Below are positions 8,186 through 36,029 of a stretch of DNA of 36,030 bases, piece by piece. The translations under genes were made by a program, and so were the position numbers. Position 1 is the first letter of the stretch, and every line of letters begins with the position of its first letter. The DNA is from a virus: positions 1-36,030 of IMG/VR virus record IMGVR_UViG_3300025128_000147. One strand, given 5' to 3'. The notes below the pieces were generated by a model. That model made no database searches. It saw only the letters and a list, made by a program, of their open reading frames with translations, and was not told the DNA's origin.

Positions 8186-8413
8186 ATGGAATATTTCTTA
8201 CAAGAGATGGTTGAGGCAACAAACGACAGTCTTACAGACAAGCAAATTGAAGTCCTTGAGGATGCACATCGTTTGTATCACCAGCGACATAGCGGCCCGT
8301 TAGCGTGGCCGCTTCAGGTTGTCTTAGTAACGCTCGCTAAACATTTGCCAGACGTAAAGCCAGACATAAAGAAAACAACGATCAAAAAAGCAAGTAGCAG
8401 GTCAGTTGAATGA
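8186..8413 (+). CDS. Small hypothetical protein
   Basis: A 75-residue helical protein. It starts just after the terminator with GAGGGGTTAAGG before ATG and ends with an ATGA overlap into the adaptor gene. The N-terminal half is acidic (L-Q-E-M-V-E-A-T-N-D-S-L). The middle is hydrophobic and the C-terminus is Lys-rich. No family was recognised. Coupling to the adaptor suggests a head-completion or tail role. Confidence 0.7.
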   Translation: MEYFLQEMVEATNDSLTDKQIEVLEDAHRLYHQRHSGPLAWPLQVVLVTLAKHLPDVKPDIKKTTIKKASSRSVE

Positions 8414-9513
8414 GCTTTGTCCGCAATGAAGCAGTAACAGGCTTTACATTCGGTATGGTCAATGCGACCTCCGGTGCAGCCCTTACTGGTGTAGCCAGTG
8501 CGATAGGCAAGTATCACACCAAGGATGGTGGGTCACAAGCTGCTCTATCTGGCACCATTGCGGAAGAAGGCAACGGACAATACTCGATAAACCTCACAGC
8601 CACTGAGATGAACGCCTCAGTGGTTGGTTTGCTTTTTACGCACTCCAGTGGTGTACCGGTCCAATTTACGATCAAAACCTTAGGATCACCGGCAGACACC
8701 AGCACGGAGAGCACGCTAAGCCTGAGCCTTACCGATCTACGCAAGGAGGTTGGGTGGTTCTGGCTTGGTGAAAGAACCAGCAGCAACTGGTCTAGTGATG
8801 AAACAACTCAGATTGATGAGATCATTAATAGTGGGCTGCGTCAGTTCTATCACCCTGTGCCTGGTCCCAATGCTCCCAAGGGACATAAGTGGAGTTTCTT
8901 AGAACCCACGACGACACTGGCAACGGTGGCTGACACAGAGAACTACACACTCAGTGCTAACTTCGGTGGGATAATCGGTCCGTTAACGTATGCCAATACA
9001 GACAATCGCTGGTTTCCAATTGAGATCACAGGTGAGAATCGAATCAGGATTCTACGACAGCGTGATTACTCGGAAACAACCACCGATCCTAAGTTAGCTG
9101 CCATCAGACCCATCAGTTCTGATGGCGGCAATGGTCAGCGTTTTCAGCTGATGCTATGGCCCACGCCTGACAAAGCATACACGCTCAGCTATCGCTACCA
9201 TGCTTTACCGAACAAGCTAACTGCGGCAAAGCCATATCCACTTGGTGGAGAGGCGCATGCAGAAACAATCTTGGAGAGCTGTTTGGCTGTTGCGGAAAGT
9301 CGAATGGATAACGTAGCCGGTATTCATTCAGCAGCATTTCAACAACGTCTTGCAGCATCGATTACATACGACCAAGAGATGAACACACCAGAACGCATGG
9401 GATACAACGGCGATGGCAGTGAGGCTGCAATGTTAAGCGAGCAGGCTAACCGTTCTCTTAACGGAGACATCGTTAAGTACAACAGCAACGTCTTTTACGA
9501 CACCAATCCATAG
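8410..9513 (+). CDS. Head-tail adaptor with extra N-terminal beta domain
   Basis: A 367-residue protein. Residues about 10-95 repeat the beta domain of the gene at the left edge (KDGGSQ, LSG, EEGNGQYSINLT, TEMNASVVGL, TH-S-GVPV). Residues about 105-367 look like a podovirus portal-binding adaptor: an acidic helix, D-E-I-I-N-S-G-L-R-Q-F-Y-H-P, a beta region with T-L-S-Y-R-Y-H-A-L-P, then a long C-terminal helix region with C-L-A-V-A-E-S-R-M. Such adaptors form a ring under the portal and seal packaged DNA. The fusion of a surface-type domain to the adaptor is notable. The start overlaps the preceding stop. Confidence 0.8.
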   Translation: MSFVRNEAVTGFTFGMVNATSGAALTGVASAIGKYHTKDGGSQAALSGTIAEEGNGQYSINLTATEMNASVVGLLFTHSSGVPVQFTIKTLGSPADTSTESTLSLSLTDLRKEVGWFWLGERTSSNWSSDETTQIDEIINSGLRQFYHPVPGPNAPKGHKWSFLEPTTTLATVADTENYTLSANFGGIIGPLTYANTDNRWFPIEITGENRIRILRQRDYSETTTDPKLAAIRPISSDGGNGQRFQLMLWPTPDKAYTLSYRYHALPNKLTAAKPYPLGGEAHAETILESCLAVAESRMDNVAGIHSAAFQQRLAASITYDQEMNTPERMGYNGDGSEAAMLSEQANRSLNGDIVKYNSNVFYDTNP

Positions 9514-34331: not shown

Positions 34332-34344
34332 CTGTGCGCTCGTA

Positions 34345-34363
34345 GTATGTACGTGGTATGTAC
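34345..34363. promoter_or_regulatory. Paired GTATGTAC operator-like repeats
   Basis: The 8-mer GTATGTAC occurs at 34345-34352 and 34356-34363. The starts are 11 bases apart, one helical turn. The repeats lie just downstream of the predicted leftward start site, where a repressor could block transcription. A T-G-T-A-C-A palindrome lies within the second copy. Confidence 0.45.
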
Positions 34364-34379
34364 ATGCTGTGAACGTATT

Positions 34380-34407
34380 AATGTAATGAGTTCATCCAAT
34401 ATGTCAA
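34380..34407 (-). promoter_or_regulatory. Leftward sigma70-type promoter for the replication operon
   Basis: Reading the minus strand, TTGACA (34407-34402) is followed after 16 bases by TACATT (34385-34380). The start site would be near 34373, about 42 bases before the first leftward gene. It is a consensus -35 with a fair -10. It would drive the leftward genes from 34331 down to 27570. Confidence 0.55.
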
Positions 34408-34458
34408 GCAAGTTTATATGACGTTCCTAATACACATATATTATTTTCAAAGTAGGTG

Positions 34459-34486
34459 TTGACATATAAGGCTAGATATATATGTT
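34459..34486 (+). promoter_or_regulatory. Rightward sigma70-type promoter
   Basis: TTGACA (34459-34464) is followed after 16 bases by TATGTT (34481-34486). The start site would be near 34493. An inverted repeat AATGCA-CACA-TGCATT (34500-34515) lies just after it and could be an operator. It would drive the small gene ending at 34897. It lies about 50 bases from the leftward promoter, giving a divergent control region. Confidence 0.5.
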
Positions 34487-34534
34487 TATGTAATCATTTA
34501 ATGCACACATGCATTGTAAAAATGATCACAAGGT

Positions 34535-34553
34535 TGTAATATTTTTTATTACA
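34535..34553. repeat. Inverted repeat TGTAATA-TTTTT-TATTACA
   Basis: A perfect 7-bp inverted repeat with a 5-base spacer lies in the AT-rich divergent region. It could be a regulator-binding site or a weak hairpin in the rightward leader. No T-run follows. Confidence 0.5.
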
Positions 34554-34632
34554 CACGACCACACTTGTAGCAATCACGCTACGCACGACCAAAGCTGCGT
34601 AACAAAGTGAACACTAACGCTACGCACGACCA
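34551..34632. repeat. Three iteron-like repeats AC(A/G)CACGACCA
   Basis: An 11-mer occurs at 34551-34561, 34581-34591 and 34622-34632. The last two copies extend to a perfect 16-mer ACGCTACGCACGACCA (34576-34591 and 34617-34632). Start-to-start spacing is 30 and 41 bases, close to 3 and 4 helical turns, so a protein could bind on one face of the DNA. They sit beside AT-rich sequence and between divergent operons. This is compatible with a replication origin or a regulator array. Confidence 0.6.
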
Positions 34633-34897
34633 GAAAGTAAGGGACAACCTTTTGGCCGCTAATCAAACAGAGCCGTACTCCGCAATTATGTTGCGAGAGA
34701 TCTCAGACCGGATGAAACTGCAAGCTGAAAGCCTGCTTGCGATCTCCGTAAAGATGGAAGCAAACTCAGTCGAATCTATCGACGTGCTGAACTCACTGGA
34801 GTTCCGAAAGAACGGTGTGAAAAAAGTAGCAGCGTTTGTACGAGGTGCTGAAGATGCCTGGTATAACAGTCAGGTAACAAGTCAGATCGAAGACTAG
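34607..34897 (+). CDS. Small hypothetical helical protein
   Basis: Up to 96 residues from a GTG at 34607. TTG at 34652 (with AAGGGA about 8 bases before it) or ATG at 34688 are alternative starts, and the TTG has the best ribosome site. The core is helical and charged (I-S-D-R-M-K-L-Q-A-E-S-L-L-A-I-S-V-K), ending G-A-E-D-A-W-Y-N-S-Q. No DNA-binding motif is evident. It is the only gene driven by the rightward promoter and may belong to the lysogeny/early control set. The GTG start would place the third iteron inside the gene. Confidence 0.55.
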   Translation: MNTNATHDQKVRDNLLAANQTEPYSAIMLREISDRMKLQAESLLAISVKMEANSVESIDVLNSLEFRKNGVKKVAAFVRGAEDAWYNSQVTSQIED

Positions 34898-34900
34898 CCC

Positions 34901-34929
34901 TTGACAGAGCCAGTCTCAATAAGCACAAT
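34901..34929 (+). promoter_or_regulatory. Sigma70-type promoter in front of the structured RNA
   Basis: A consensus TTGACA (34901-34906) and CACAAT (34924-34929) are separated by exactly 17 bases. The expected start is near 34936. It begins 4 bases after the stop of the small gene. It has no gene between it and the terminator at 35142, so it would produce a short RNA. Confidence 0.6.
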
Positions 34930-34935
34930 AGCAGT

Positions 34936-35142
34936 ACAATGAGAAGCGCATAGAAATGCCCGCTCATTTGCTGGCCGCCCATTAAGGCGGTCCAGCTTAG
35001 ATGATAAGCTGATTCATCTAATCGATTCATATATATAAAGCACACCGGTCTGCGCAGGCAGATCAACGAATCAATTTTGAGAATTGATACTCCTAAAATT
35101 GAAACTGGCACAGGCAGACTTCGGTTTGCCTGTGTTTTTTTT
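34936..35142 (+). ncRNA. Candidate structured small RNA or leader (about 207 nt)
   Basis: The span runs from the predicted start to a strong intrinsic terminator. Hairpin A: GCTGGCCGCC (34970-34979) pairs with 34986-34996, with one bulged T. Hairpin B: CAGCTTA-GATGA-TAAGCTG (34993-35011). Alternative B': TTAGATGA (34997-35004) with TCATCTAA (35014-35021). Hairpin C: ATCAATT (35070-35076) with AATTGAT (35082-35088), competing with TCAATTTT (35071-35078) and AAAATTGA (35095-35102). Only tiny frames exist (for example 9 codons at 34956). The exclusive pairings look switch-like. A trans-acting RNA or an attenuator are both possible. Confidence 0.5.
35109..35142 (+). terminator. Strong UUCG-loop terminator
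   Basis: An 11-bp stem (35109-35119 with 35124-35134, one G-U pair) is closed by a cUUCGg tetraloop and followed by eight Ts (35135-35142). This loop type is very stable. The 5' arm repeats an upstream CAGGCAGA (35055-35062), which could pair with the 3' arm as an antiterminator. Confidence 0.9.
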
Positions 35143-35220
35143 GTTTTTCTATTTGTCAGTGACCAAACGTGTCACAGTCTCCGACAAAATAAATTCTAAA
35201 AGAGTGGTGGAATCTACATT

Positions 35221-35245
35221 TTCAGTTTCATAGAATCTAACTGAA
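35221..35245. promoter_or_regulatory. Operator-like inverted repeat TTCAGTT/AACTGAA
   Basis: A 7-bp perfect inverted repeat with an 11-base spacer (35221-35227 and 35239-35245), about 59 bases upstream of the small gene at 35304. It has the size and symmetry of a dimeric repressor site. No clear promoter could be placed around it. Confidence 0.4.
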
Positions 35246-35303
35246 CAGAGTAGATGACACACACATACCATGTACATCATTCGATTTTGAAAGGTGATCT
35301 CTG

Positions 35304-35525
35304 ATGTATCGTTTGCAAATGATTGAGAAGAATTCTCGCGATGTCTTTTTTGAGAGACTGTTTACAACTGACGCTGATGCACAAGCTTTTGGTGAAGAGT
35401 TGGAAAAACATAACAGTCGTTTTACGATTCGGATTCGTAAGCTTGGACCAATTCCATGGCTACGGTTTGGCTTGAGCCGTATAAGGCTCAAGCCACTCAG
35501 ATGGTTGAAGCTTACGTCAAAGTAG
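35304..35525 (+). CDS. Small basic hypothetical protein next to integrase
   Basis: A 73-residue protein with AAAGGTGATCTCTG before ATG. The first part is mixed (Y-R-L-Q-M-I-E-K-N, F-F-E-R-L-F-T-T-D-A-D-A-Q) and the C-terminus is strongly basic (I-R-I-R-K-L-G, R-I-R-L-K-P-L-R-W-L-K). It ends 9 bases inside the convergent integrase gene. Its position suggests an excisionase or regulator, but no helix-turn-helix or winged-helix motif is certain. A long inverted repeat lies in its 3' end. Confidence 0.55.
   Translation: MYRLQMIEKNSRDVFFERLFTTDADAQAFGEELEKHNSRFTIRIRKLGPIPWLRFGLSRIRLKPLRWLKLTSK
35469..35494. repeat. Perfect 10-bp inverted repeat near integrase end
   Basis: GGCTTGAGCC (35469-35478), loop GTATAA, then GGCTCAAGCC (35485-35494). 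It lies inside the 3' end of the small gene, 22 bases from the integrase stop. No T-run follows in either direction. It could be a bidirectional RNA structure between convergent genes or a recombinase-related site. Confidence 0.75.
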
Positions 35526-36029
35526 ATTCATCGCATCAGCTACGTCTGAATCGTACGCATGCGAGTACATGCGAAGTGTAGTCATTGGATCGGAATGACC
35601 TAGTATCTTTGCAATGACCGCTATGTTCACGCCTGCTCCGAGCATTCTGCTTGCTGCTGTATGCCTTAGACAATGCCAAGCCAAGCCTGGTTTATCAAAC
35701 TTGGTGTTTCGCTTCGCCTTCTGAAAGGCTGAACTCAAGGTGTTCTTCTTATCAGTGAATAGGTTCTCACCACTAGCTTTAGATTCGATGCGTCGTCGCA
35801 GCATACCTTTAATCTGTGCAGGTACGGGTAGTCTGCGGTAGCTTACTGAGGCATCTGAACGTCTGGTGAGTGAACGCTTGCCTGACCTGCGACGAATAGC
35901 ATTGCCTTTGGGATTCGGTAAAGTCACATGTGCCAGATCACCTGAAAACAAATCAGATGTGATGCGCGTTAGCTCACCACGACGGATAGGTATGTATGCC
36001 ACAAACTCAACGGCATCTGCGATCATCTC
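35517..36029 (-). CDS. int: Tyrosine recombinase (integrase), C-terminal part, partial at right edge
   Basis: The frame is open to the right edge, so the N-terminal arm- and core-binding domains are outside the window; 170 residues of the catalytic domain are seen. Active-site residues appear in order: Arg in P-I-R-R-G-E-L-T-R-I, a Lys in N-P-K-G-N, His and Arg in W-H-C-L-R-H-T-A-A-S-R, His in L-G-H-S-D-P-M-T-T, and the nucleophile Tyr in R-M-Y-S-H-A-Y. It should integrate and excise the phage through att sites, making the phage temperate. It converges on the small gene at 35304 with a 9-base overlap. No attP could be identified. Confidence 0.9.
   Translation of the reverse strand, partial: EMIADAVEFVAYIPIRRGELTRITSDLFSGDLAHVTLPNPKGNAIRRRSGKRSLTRRSDASVSYRRLPVPAQIKGMLRRRIESKASGENLFTDKKNTLSSAFQKAKRNTKFDKPGLAWHCLRHTAASRMLGAGVNIAVIAKILGHSDPMTTLRMYSHAYDSDVADAMNLL

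Follow-up and report, generated by a model that had tools for sequence, protein, structure and literature searches.

The question raised by this locus is whether a promoter, a run of stable hairpins and an intrinsic terminator, found together between two short genes of a phage, form a gene for a small RNA in its own right or belong to a neighboring gene as its leader or its tail. The window, i.e., the whole 36,030-base stretch that was analyzed, is an incomplete viral contig, the end of which falls within an integrase gene. Rightward structural genes occupy bases 47 to about 27,610, a leftward replication and recombination block runs from 34,331 to 27,570, and the right end is a hub of short genes, in which a gene of 96 amino acids (aa), the RNA unit, a gene of 73 aa and the end of a tyrosine integrase follow one another (Table 1). 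No other non-coding gap of the record is as long as the one that contains the unit (34898-35303). When viral contigs were scanned by DNA pattern and with five proteins (helicase, exonuclease, portal and the 96-aa and 73-aa proteins), one contig with the unit was obtained, namely IMGVR_UViG_3300009481_000145, here called the sister phage, which carries the same hub (unit at L187:17671-17884). The 96-aa protein had no Pfam or PHROG match and was modeled as mostly helical with low confidence; it is 97% identical in amino acids to its sister counterpart, despite about 6% nucleotide change. The 73-aa protein is 90% identical and was modeled as beta-beta-alpha-beta (pLDDT 74). The predicted structures of these neighboring proteins gave no informative match. 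The end of the 73-aa gene also holds a perfect 10-bp inverted repeat (35471-35496; GGCTTGAGCC-GTATAA-GGCTCAAGCC), the arms of which are kept in the sister phage, with the loop changed to GTGTCA. Elsewhere in the record, a 113-aa protein (47-388) and a 367-aa SU10 adaptor-like protein (8410-9513) cross-match each other's relatives (about 53% identity over 88 residues), and by this measure they share a domain that is probably duplicated.

Table 1. Coordinates of the RNA unit, its predicted elements and the flanking genes
Feature	Position	Strand	Basis or remark
Sigma70-type promoter of the RNA, TTGACA-N17-CACAAT	34901..34929	+	Identical in sister phage
Predicted structured non-coding RNA, about 207 nt	34936..35142	+	MFE, z-score, sister homologue
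Hairpin 1, AAUGAG...CUCAUU, inner stem GCAU/AUGC	34938..34968	+	Fold
Hairpin 2, GCUGGCCGCC / GGCGGuCCAGC	34970..34996	+	Fold
Hairpin 3, UUAGAUGA / UCAUCUAA	34997..35021	+	Fold
Hairpin 4, GGUCUGC / GCAGAUC	35047..35064	+	Fold
Hairpin 5, long stem 35071-35102 or short stem 35070-35088	35070..35102	+	Fold
Intrinsic terminator, 13 bp, cUUCGg loop, U8	35107..35142	+	Hairpin and T-tract search; stem 35107-35136, T8 at 35135-35142
Upstream gene, 96 aa, no family	34607..34897	+	Stop codon 3 nt ahead of -35 box
Downstream gene, 73 aa, no family	35304..35525	+	Candidate cis target
Tyrosine integrase, end of gene	35517-36026	-	Convergent with hub genes; C-terminal part only in record

An earlier note on this DNA had described the promoter, about 207 bases without a meaningful frame, and a cUUCGg hairpin followed by eight Ts, and all three were located as described. 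The -35 box TTGACA (34901-34906) is separated by a 17-nt spacer from the -10 box CACAAT (34924-34929), which matches in 4/6 positions only, and the predicted transcription start lies at about 34936. A strict rule, demanding a perfect TTGACA, a spacer of 16-18 nt and a -10 box matching in at least 4/6 positions, was applied genome-wide and returned only three sites in the whole record, 34407(-), 34459(+) and 34901(+), all within one 1.1-kb intergenic hub. By chance, 1.0 such site would be expected for the record and 0.07 for the region, and three were reached in 0/500 shuffles of the region. With a loose rule, the result in the AT-rich gap was not impressive (7 found vs 3.8 expected). The sites at 34407(-) and 34459(+) are divergent, the former facing the replication block, which is read leftward, and the latter the short genes read rightward; no repressor gene was recognized near them or was visible in the record. 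Since the strict promoter sites cluster and the record's sole strong terminator lies with them, the layout suggests a hub of divergent early promoters joined by a third promoter that would serve the RNA. Two copies of a direct repeat, ACGCTACGCACGACCA, lie between the divergent promoters and the start of the 96-aa gene (34576-34591 and 34617-34632, 41 nt apart), and are possible operator sites.

The terminator is the only strong hairpin followed by at least six Ts that the rule used found in the 36 kb of the record. Inside the unit, the longest frame on the plus strand is only 9 codons (MPAHLLAAH, 34956-34985), and its ribosome site is poor; on the antisense strand, a GTG frame of 111 aa (34776-35111) is shortened to 88 aa in the sister phage. 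The locus has, in this respect, the arrangement of a phage small-RNA gene, with an own promoter and an intrinsic terminator around a non-coding stretch.

The fold of the predicted RNA is consistent with a structured product. The whole RNA had an MFE of -74.7 kcal/mol (z=-6.5), and 0/200 shuffles were as good; removal of hairpin 5 and the terminator still left a z-score of -4.7. The opposite strand of the unit, which lacks a T tract, reached z=-5.2. When the whole genome was scanned coarsely (24 shuffles per segment, noisy), segments of the unit came out among the top ones for structure, and others ranked alike. Hairpin 2 is the most stable of the upstream elements (-18.5 kcal/mol). Few parts are left unpaired, these being the linker at 35022-35046, the loop of hairpin 3 and the ACUCCU loop of hairpin 5.

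It had also been proposed in the earlier note that the RNA contains three sets of mutually exclusive stems. All of these can form as base pairs, and helices of at least 6 bp are in excess (9 vs a shuffle mean of 3.3, p=0.006); the number of exclusive stem pairs, however, is not unusual (three vs a shuffle mean of 0.8, p=0.094). Hairpin 3 excludes an alternative stem at 34993-35011, which would open hairpin 2 as well, and the alternative, for which the stable hairpin 2 must be broken, loses. In hairpin 5, the long and the short stem are two to three kcal/mol apart. More notable is a helix of 12 bp that 35053-35064, the 3' side of hairpin 4, can form with the 3' arm of the terminator; this competitor scored -18.2 kcal/mol vs -10.9 (sd 1.9) in shuffles, a value as good being found in 1/1000. 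Over the segment 35050-35142, the forced antiterminator fold reached -28.0 kcal/mol vs -32.9 for the terminator fold. Since the fold containing the competitor costs 4.9 kcal/mol more, the default outcome is termination, and switching is no more than a possibility. Both arms of the terminator and the competitor segment are invariant between the two phages. The case for a switch is, in sum, weaker than that for a small-RNA unit.

Comparison with the sister phage delimited the unit further. A block of 168 nt (34900-35067) is identical in the two phages and begins one base ahead of TTGACA; beyond it, the terminator is kept, and within the RNA several changes occur in hairpin 5 alone, with six edits in and beside it and both of its stems still formable. 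The gap 34332-34606 is 90% identical, and the 161 nt from the terminator to the start codon (35143-35303) are only 62% identical, with long indels. As far as two sequences tell, conservation tracks the transcription unit and not the downstream leader. An imperfect palindrome just past the terminator (35159-35175, GTGAC-CAAACGT-GTCAC) persists in the sister phage amid an otherwise diverged leader. It is to be noted that the identical block could reflect a recent exchange, since other gaps of the same genome pair are also 98-100% identical. The edits in hairpin 5 looked striking at first but were not counted as proof of covariation, since the helix survives equally many random edits in 14-16% of mutants, and the pairing changes between the two sequences are overall too few to count as such.

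The same 73-aa gene lies downstream of the unit in both phages. Homology ends at 35515, just before the integrase, and a separate tyrosine recombinase follows in each (L187 18222-19793, 523 aa, in the sister phage). On this alignment, the integrase difference is a clean module swap; and since homology stops there and the recombinases differ, the unit as compared does not travel with, and is not tied to, one integrase. The idea that a serine integrase had replaced the tyrosine enzyme in the sister phage was rejected, as another tyrosine recombinase sits there; the sister phage has a serine recombinase also, further out. In several relatives (L199, L203, L209-L214), a serine recombinase lies beside the exonuclease gene of the same replication block, at the position that the tyrosine integrase occupies in the record.

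Portal and helicase define a group of virus contigs, with about 39-99% protein identity, which from our reading of the source datasets we take to be marine. Among about 80 such portal and helicase relatives, more distant than the sister phage and many of them fragments, neither blastn nor a covariance model found the unit beyond the sister phage. No third homologue was found in 289 Verrucomicrobiota genomes, where the covariance-model matches were discarded, being either plain terminators of the UUCG type or a stretch rich in GC. Phage and plasmid collections held no homologue, with one meaningless 31-nt match, and a loose palindrome pattern in genome contigs retrieved solely unrelated GC-rich palindromes. 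Rfam 15, known leaders and riboswitches included, yielded 0 matches above the gathering cut-off, the best subthreshold match being L20_leader (25 bits vs a cut-off of 58.7). Of the checks suggested beforehand, that by Rfam returned nothing, and in that of pairing in relatives the sister phage keeps the stems, with too few changes to count as covariation. As regards the host, a portal search in Gammaproteobacteria, Alphaproteobacteria and Planctomycetota found nothing; a terminase 39% identical to that of the record is present in one Verrucomicrobiota genome, which is the only hint of a host group, and no more than a hint. In the Verrucomicrobiota genome G1177:C1, two equal terminase copies (34978-36765 and 85911-87698; L232, L235) lie 50.9 kb apart, perhaps in a duplicated or tandem prophage.

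Two readings of the unit would attach it to a neighboring gene. The earlier note had offered a small RNA or a conditional leader, and of these, a small RNA with its own promoter and terminator fits best, the leader being possible and, in our judgment, unlikely. The note's small RNA was one made from a prophage, an origin that is conjectural, the record being an incomplete viral contig that breaks off in an integrase gene. As such a leader, the RNA would be the 5' end of the 73-aa transcript, stopping at 35142 by default until a signal or a phage protein allowed 35053-35064 to take the terminator 3' arm, with read-through as the result. A competitor of 12 bp that 1/1000 shuffles matched, an antiterminator fold that costs only 4.9 kcal/mol, and promoter scans in which no TTGACA-type promoter appeared between 35142 and 35304 all speak for this, whereas the terminator fold is the favored one, hairpin 4 has to open first and the competing folds are unbalanced. 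The pairing, moreover, is made by the repeat CAGGCAGA alone, the remaining exclusive pairs are within chance, the stretch leading to the 73-aa gene is poorly kept with its indels, and nothing like a known leader or riboswitch was matched, L20_leader lying far below its cut-off. It is rather doubtful, too, that the hairpins are the structured 3' end of an early rightward operon, which would run from the 34459 promoter through the 96-aa gene to the terminator, and in which they would serve as protection or insulation for the mRNA and keep antisense transcription away from the convergent integrase. A dedicated TTGACA promoter between the stop codon and the hairpins is at odds with this, as is the 73-aa gene next on the same strand; and the terminator suffices for insulation, leaving four further conserved hairpins unneeded, even though the divergent promoters at 34407(-) and 34459(+), the 96-aa gene directly upstream, the integrase converging at 35517 and the record's sole strong terminator would suit it.

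The remaining two readings dispense with a functional RNA. A DNA-level element, such as a recombination site, an operator array or an origin, whose inverted repeats mimic RNA hairpins, would agree with the proximity of the integrase and with the opposite strand also folding well (z -5.2), but the same block adjoins two different integrases, the T8 tract and the better fold belong to the plus strand only, and the whole is framed by promoter and terminator, which makes this very unlikely. Least credible is that sequences resembling a promoter and a terminator came together by chance: loose-rule promoter matches are indeed common in the AT-rich gap, as counted above, and against this stand the stricter genome-wide controls, the fold statistics (z=-6.5) and the retention of the unit in the sister phage.

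The reading that we prefer, with moderate confidence, is that of a stand-alone gene for a trans-acting phage small RNA of ~200 nt; it is favored because the promoter lies directly past a stop codon, a terminator closes the unit and conservation follows the unit. The unit is well supported, owing to the sequence statistics and one sister phage, whereas its transcription, its action in trans and its targets are inferred. RNA polymerase would start near 34936, the transcript would fold into four compact hairpins, then a fifth, A/U-rich hairpin and then the strong terminator, and transcription would stop at about 35142. The RNA, which is probably lineage-specific, would then act in trans, either by base pairing through its unpaired parts (the linker and the loops of hairpins 3 and 5 being the candidates) or by binding a protein, and may adjust the activity of genes of the host or the phage, either in early infection or in lysogens. 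Against the early transcripts of the phage itself and against its integrase, complementarity was no better than in shuffles, so the targets, if the RNA pairs, are more likely in the host; an unrestricted duplex scan over start regions was uninformative, as it ignores accessibility. An extended version, which we consider improbable, would make this a new RNA family of a little-known marine lineage with a possible Verrucomicrobiota link, combining a trans-acting RNA with a switchable terminator. In it, hairpin 4, which resembles the terminator hairpin, could invade the latter, so that one RNA would have two fates, release or extension into the 73-aa gene.

Phages use small RNAs in several ways, exemplified by lambda 6S RNA, the put RNAs and the immunity RNAs of P4 and P1. 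The lambda 6S RNA, of about 194 nt, spans pR'-tR' and leads into the late genes under Q. The put RNA of HK022, of about 65 nt with two hairpins, acts on terminators downstream, and the antisense immunity RNAs P4 CI and P1 C4 target their own early leader by pairing. Trans-acting small RNAs encoded by phages include PreS (lambda) and VpdS (VP882), and lambda 6S RNA is listed as a phage sRNA as well (PMC12197685). By analogy, the unit would work most like PreS and VpdS among the phage RNAs compared, each being a small RNA gene in an early or regulatory phage region without a protein frame, although no sequence relation was found, and PreS and VpdS are proven by experiment whereas the present unit is known as sequence. 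Lambda 6S is likewise a terminated transcript of ~200 nt from its own promoter, and the unit could similarly serve in both roles, as an RNA and as a terminated leader; however, late genes under Q follow there, whereas here the 73-aa gene alone follows and no Q-like gene was recognized. With put and antitermination leaders, the unit shares a structured phage RNA beside a terminator in an early region, but put is much shorter, with its two hairpins, and read-through in the unit is hypothetical. P4 CI and P1 C4 are also small structured RNAs near an early promoter, and the record has no visible repressor gene, but complementarity of the unit to the early leader was not above shuffles.

Overall, phage small RNAs are an already known kind, and the RNA of this record fits no described family. 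With two copies only, it is a good candidate and not a discovery; being compact and well bounded, the unit is directly testable on a plasmid. Few phage small RNAs are known outside the phages of laboratory bacteria, and, if expressed, this one would place an RNA regulator within the regulatory hub of a phage group that is uncultured and presumably marine.
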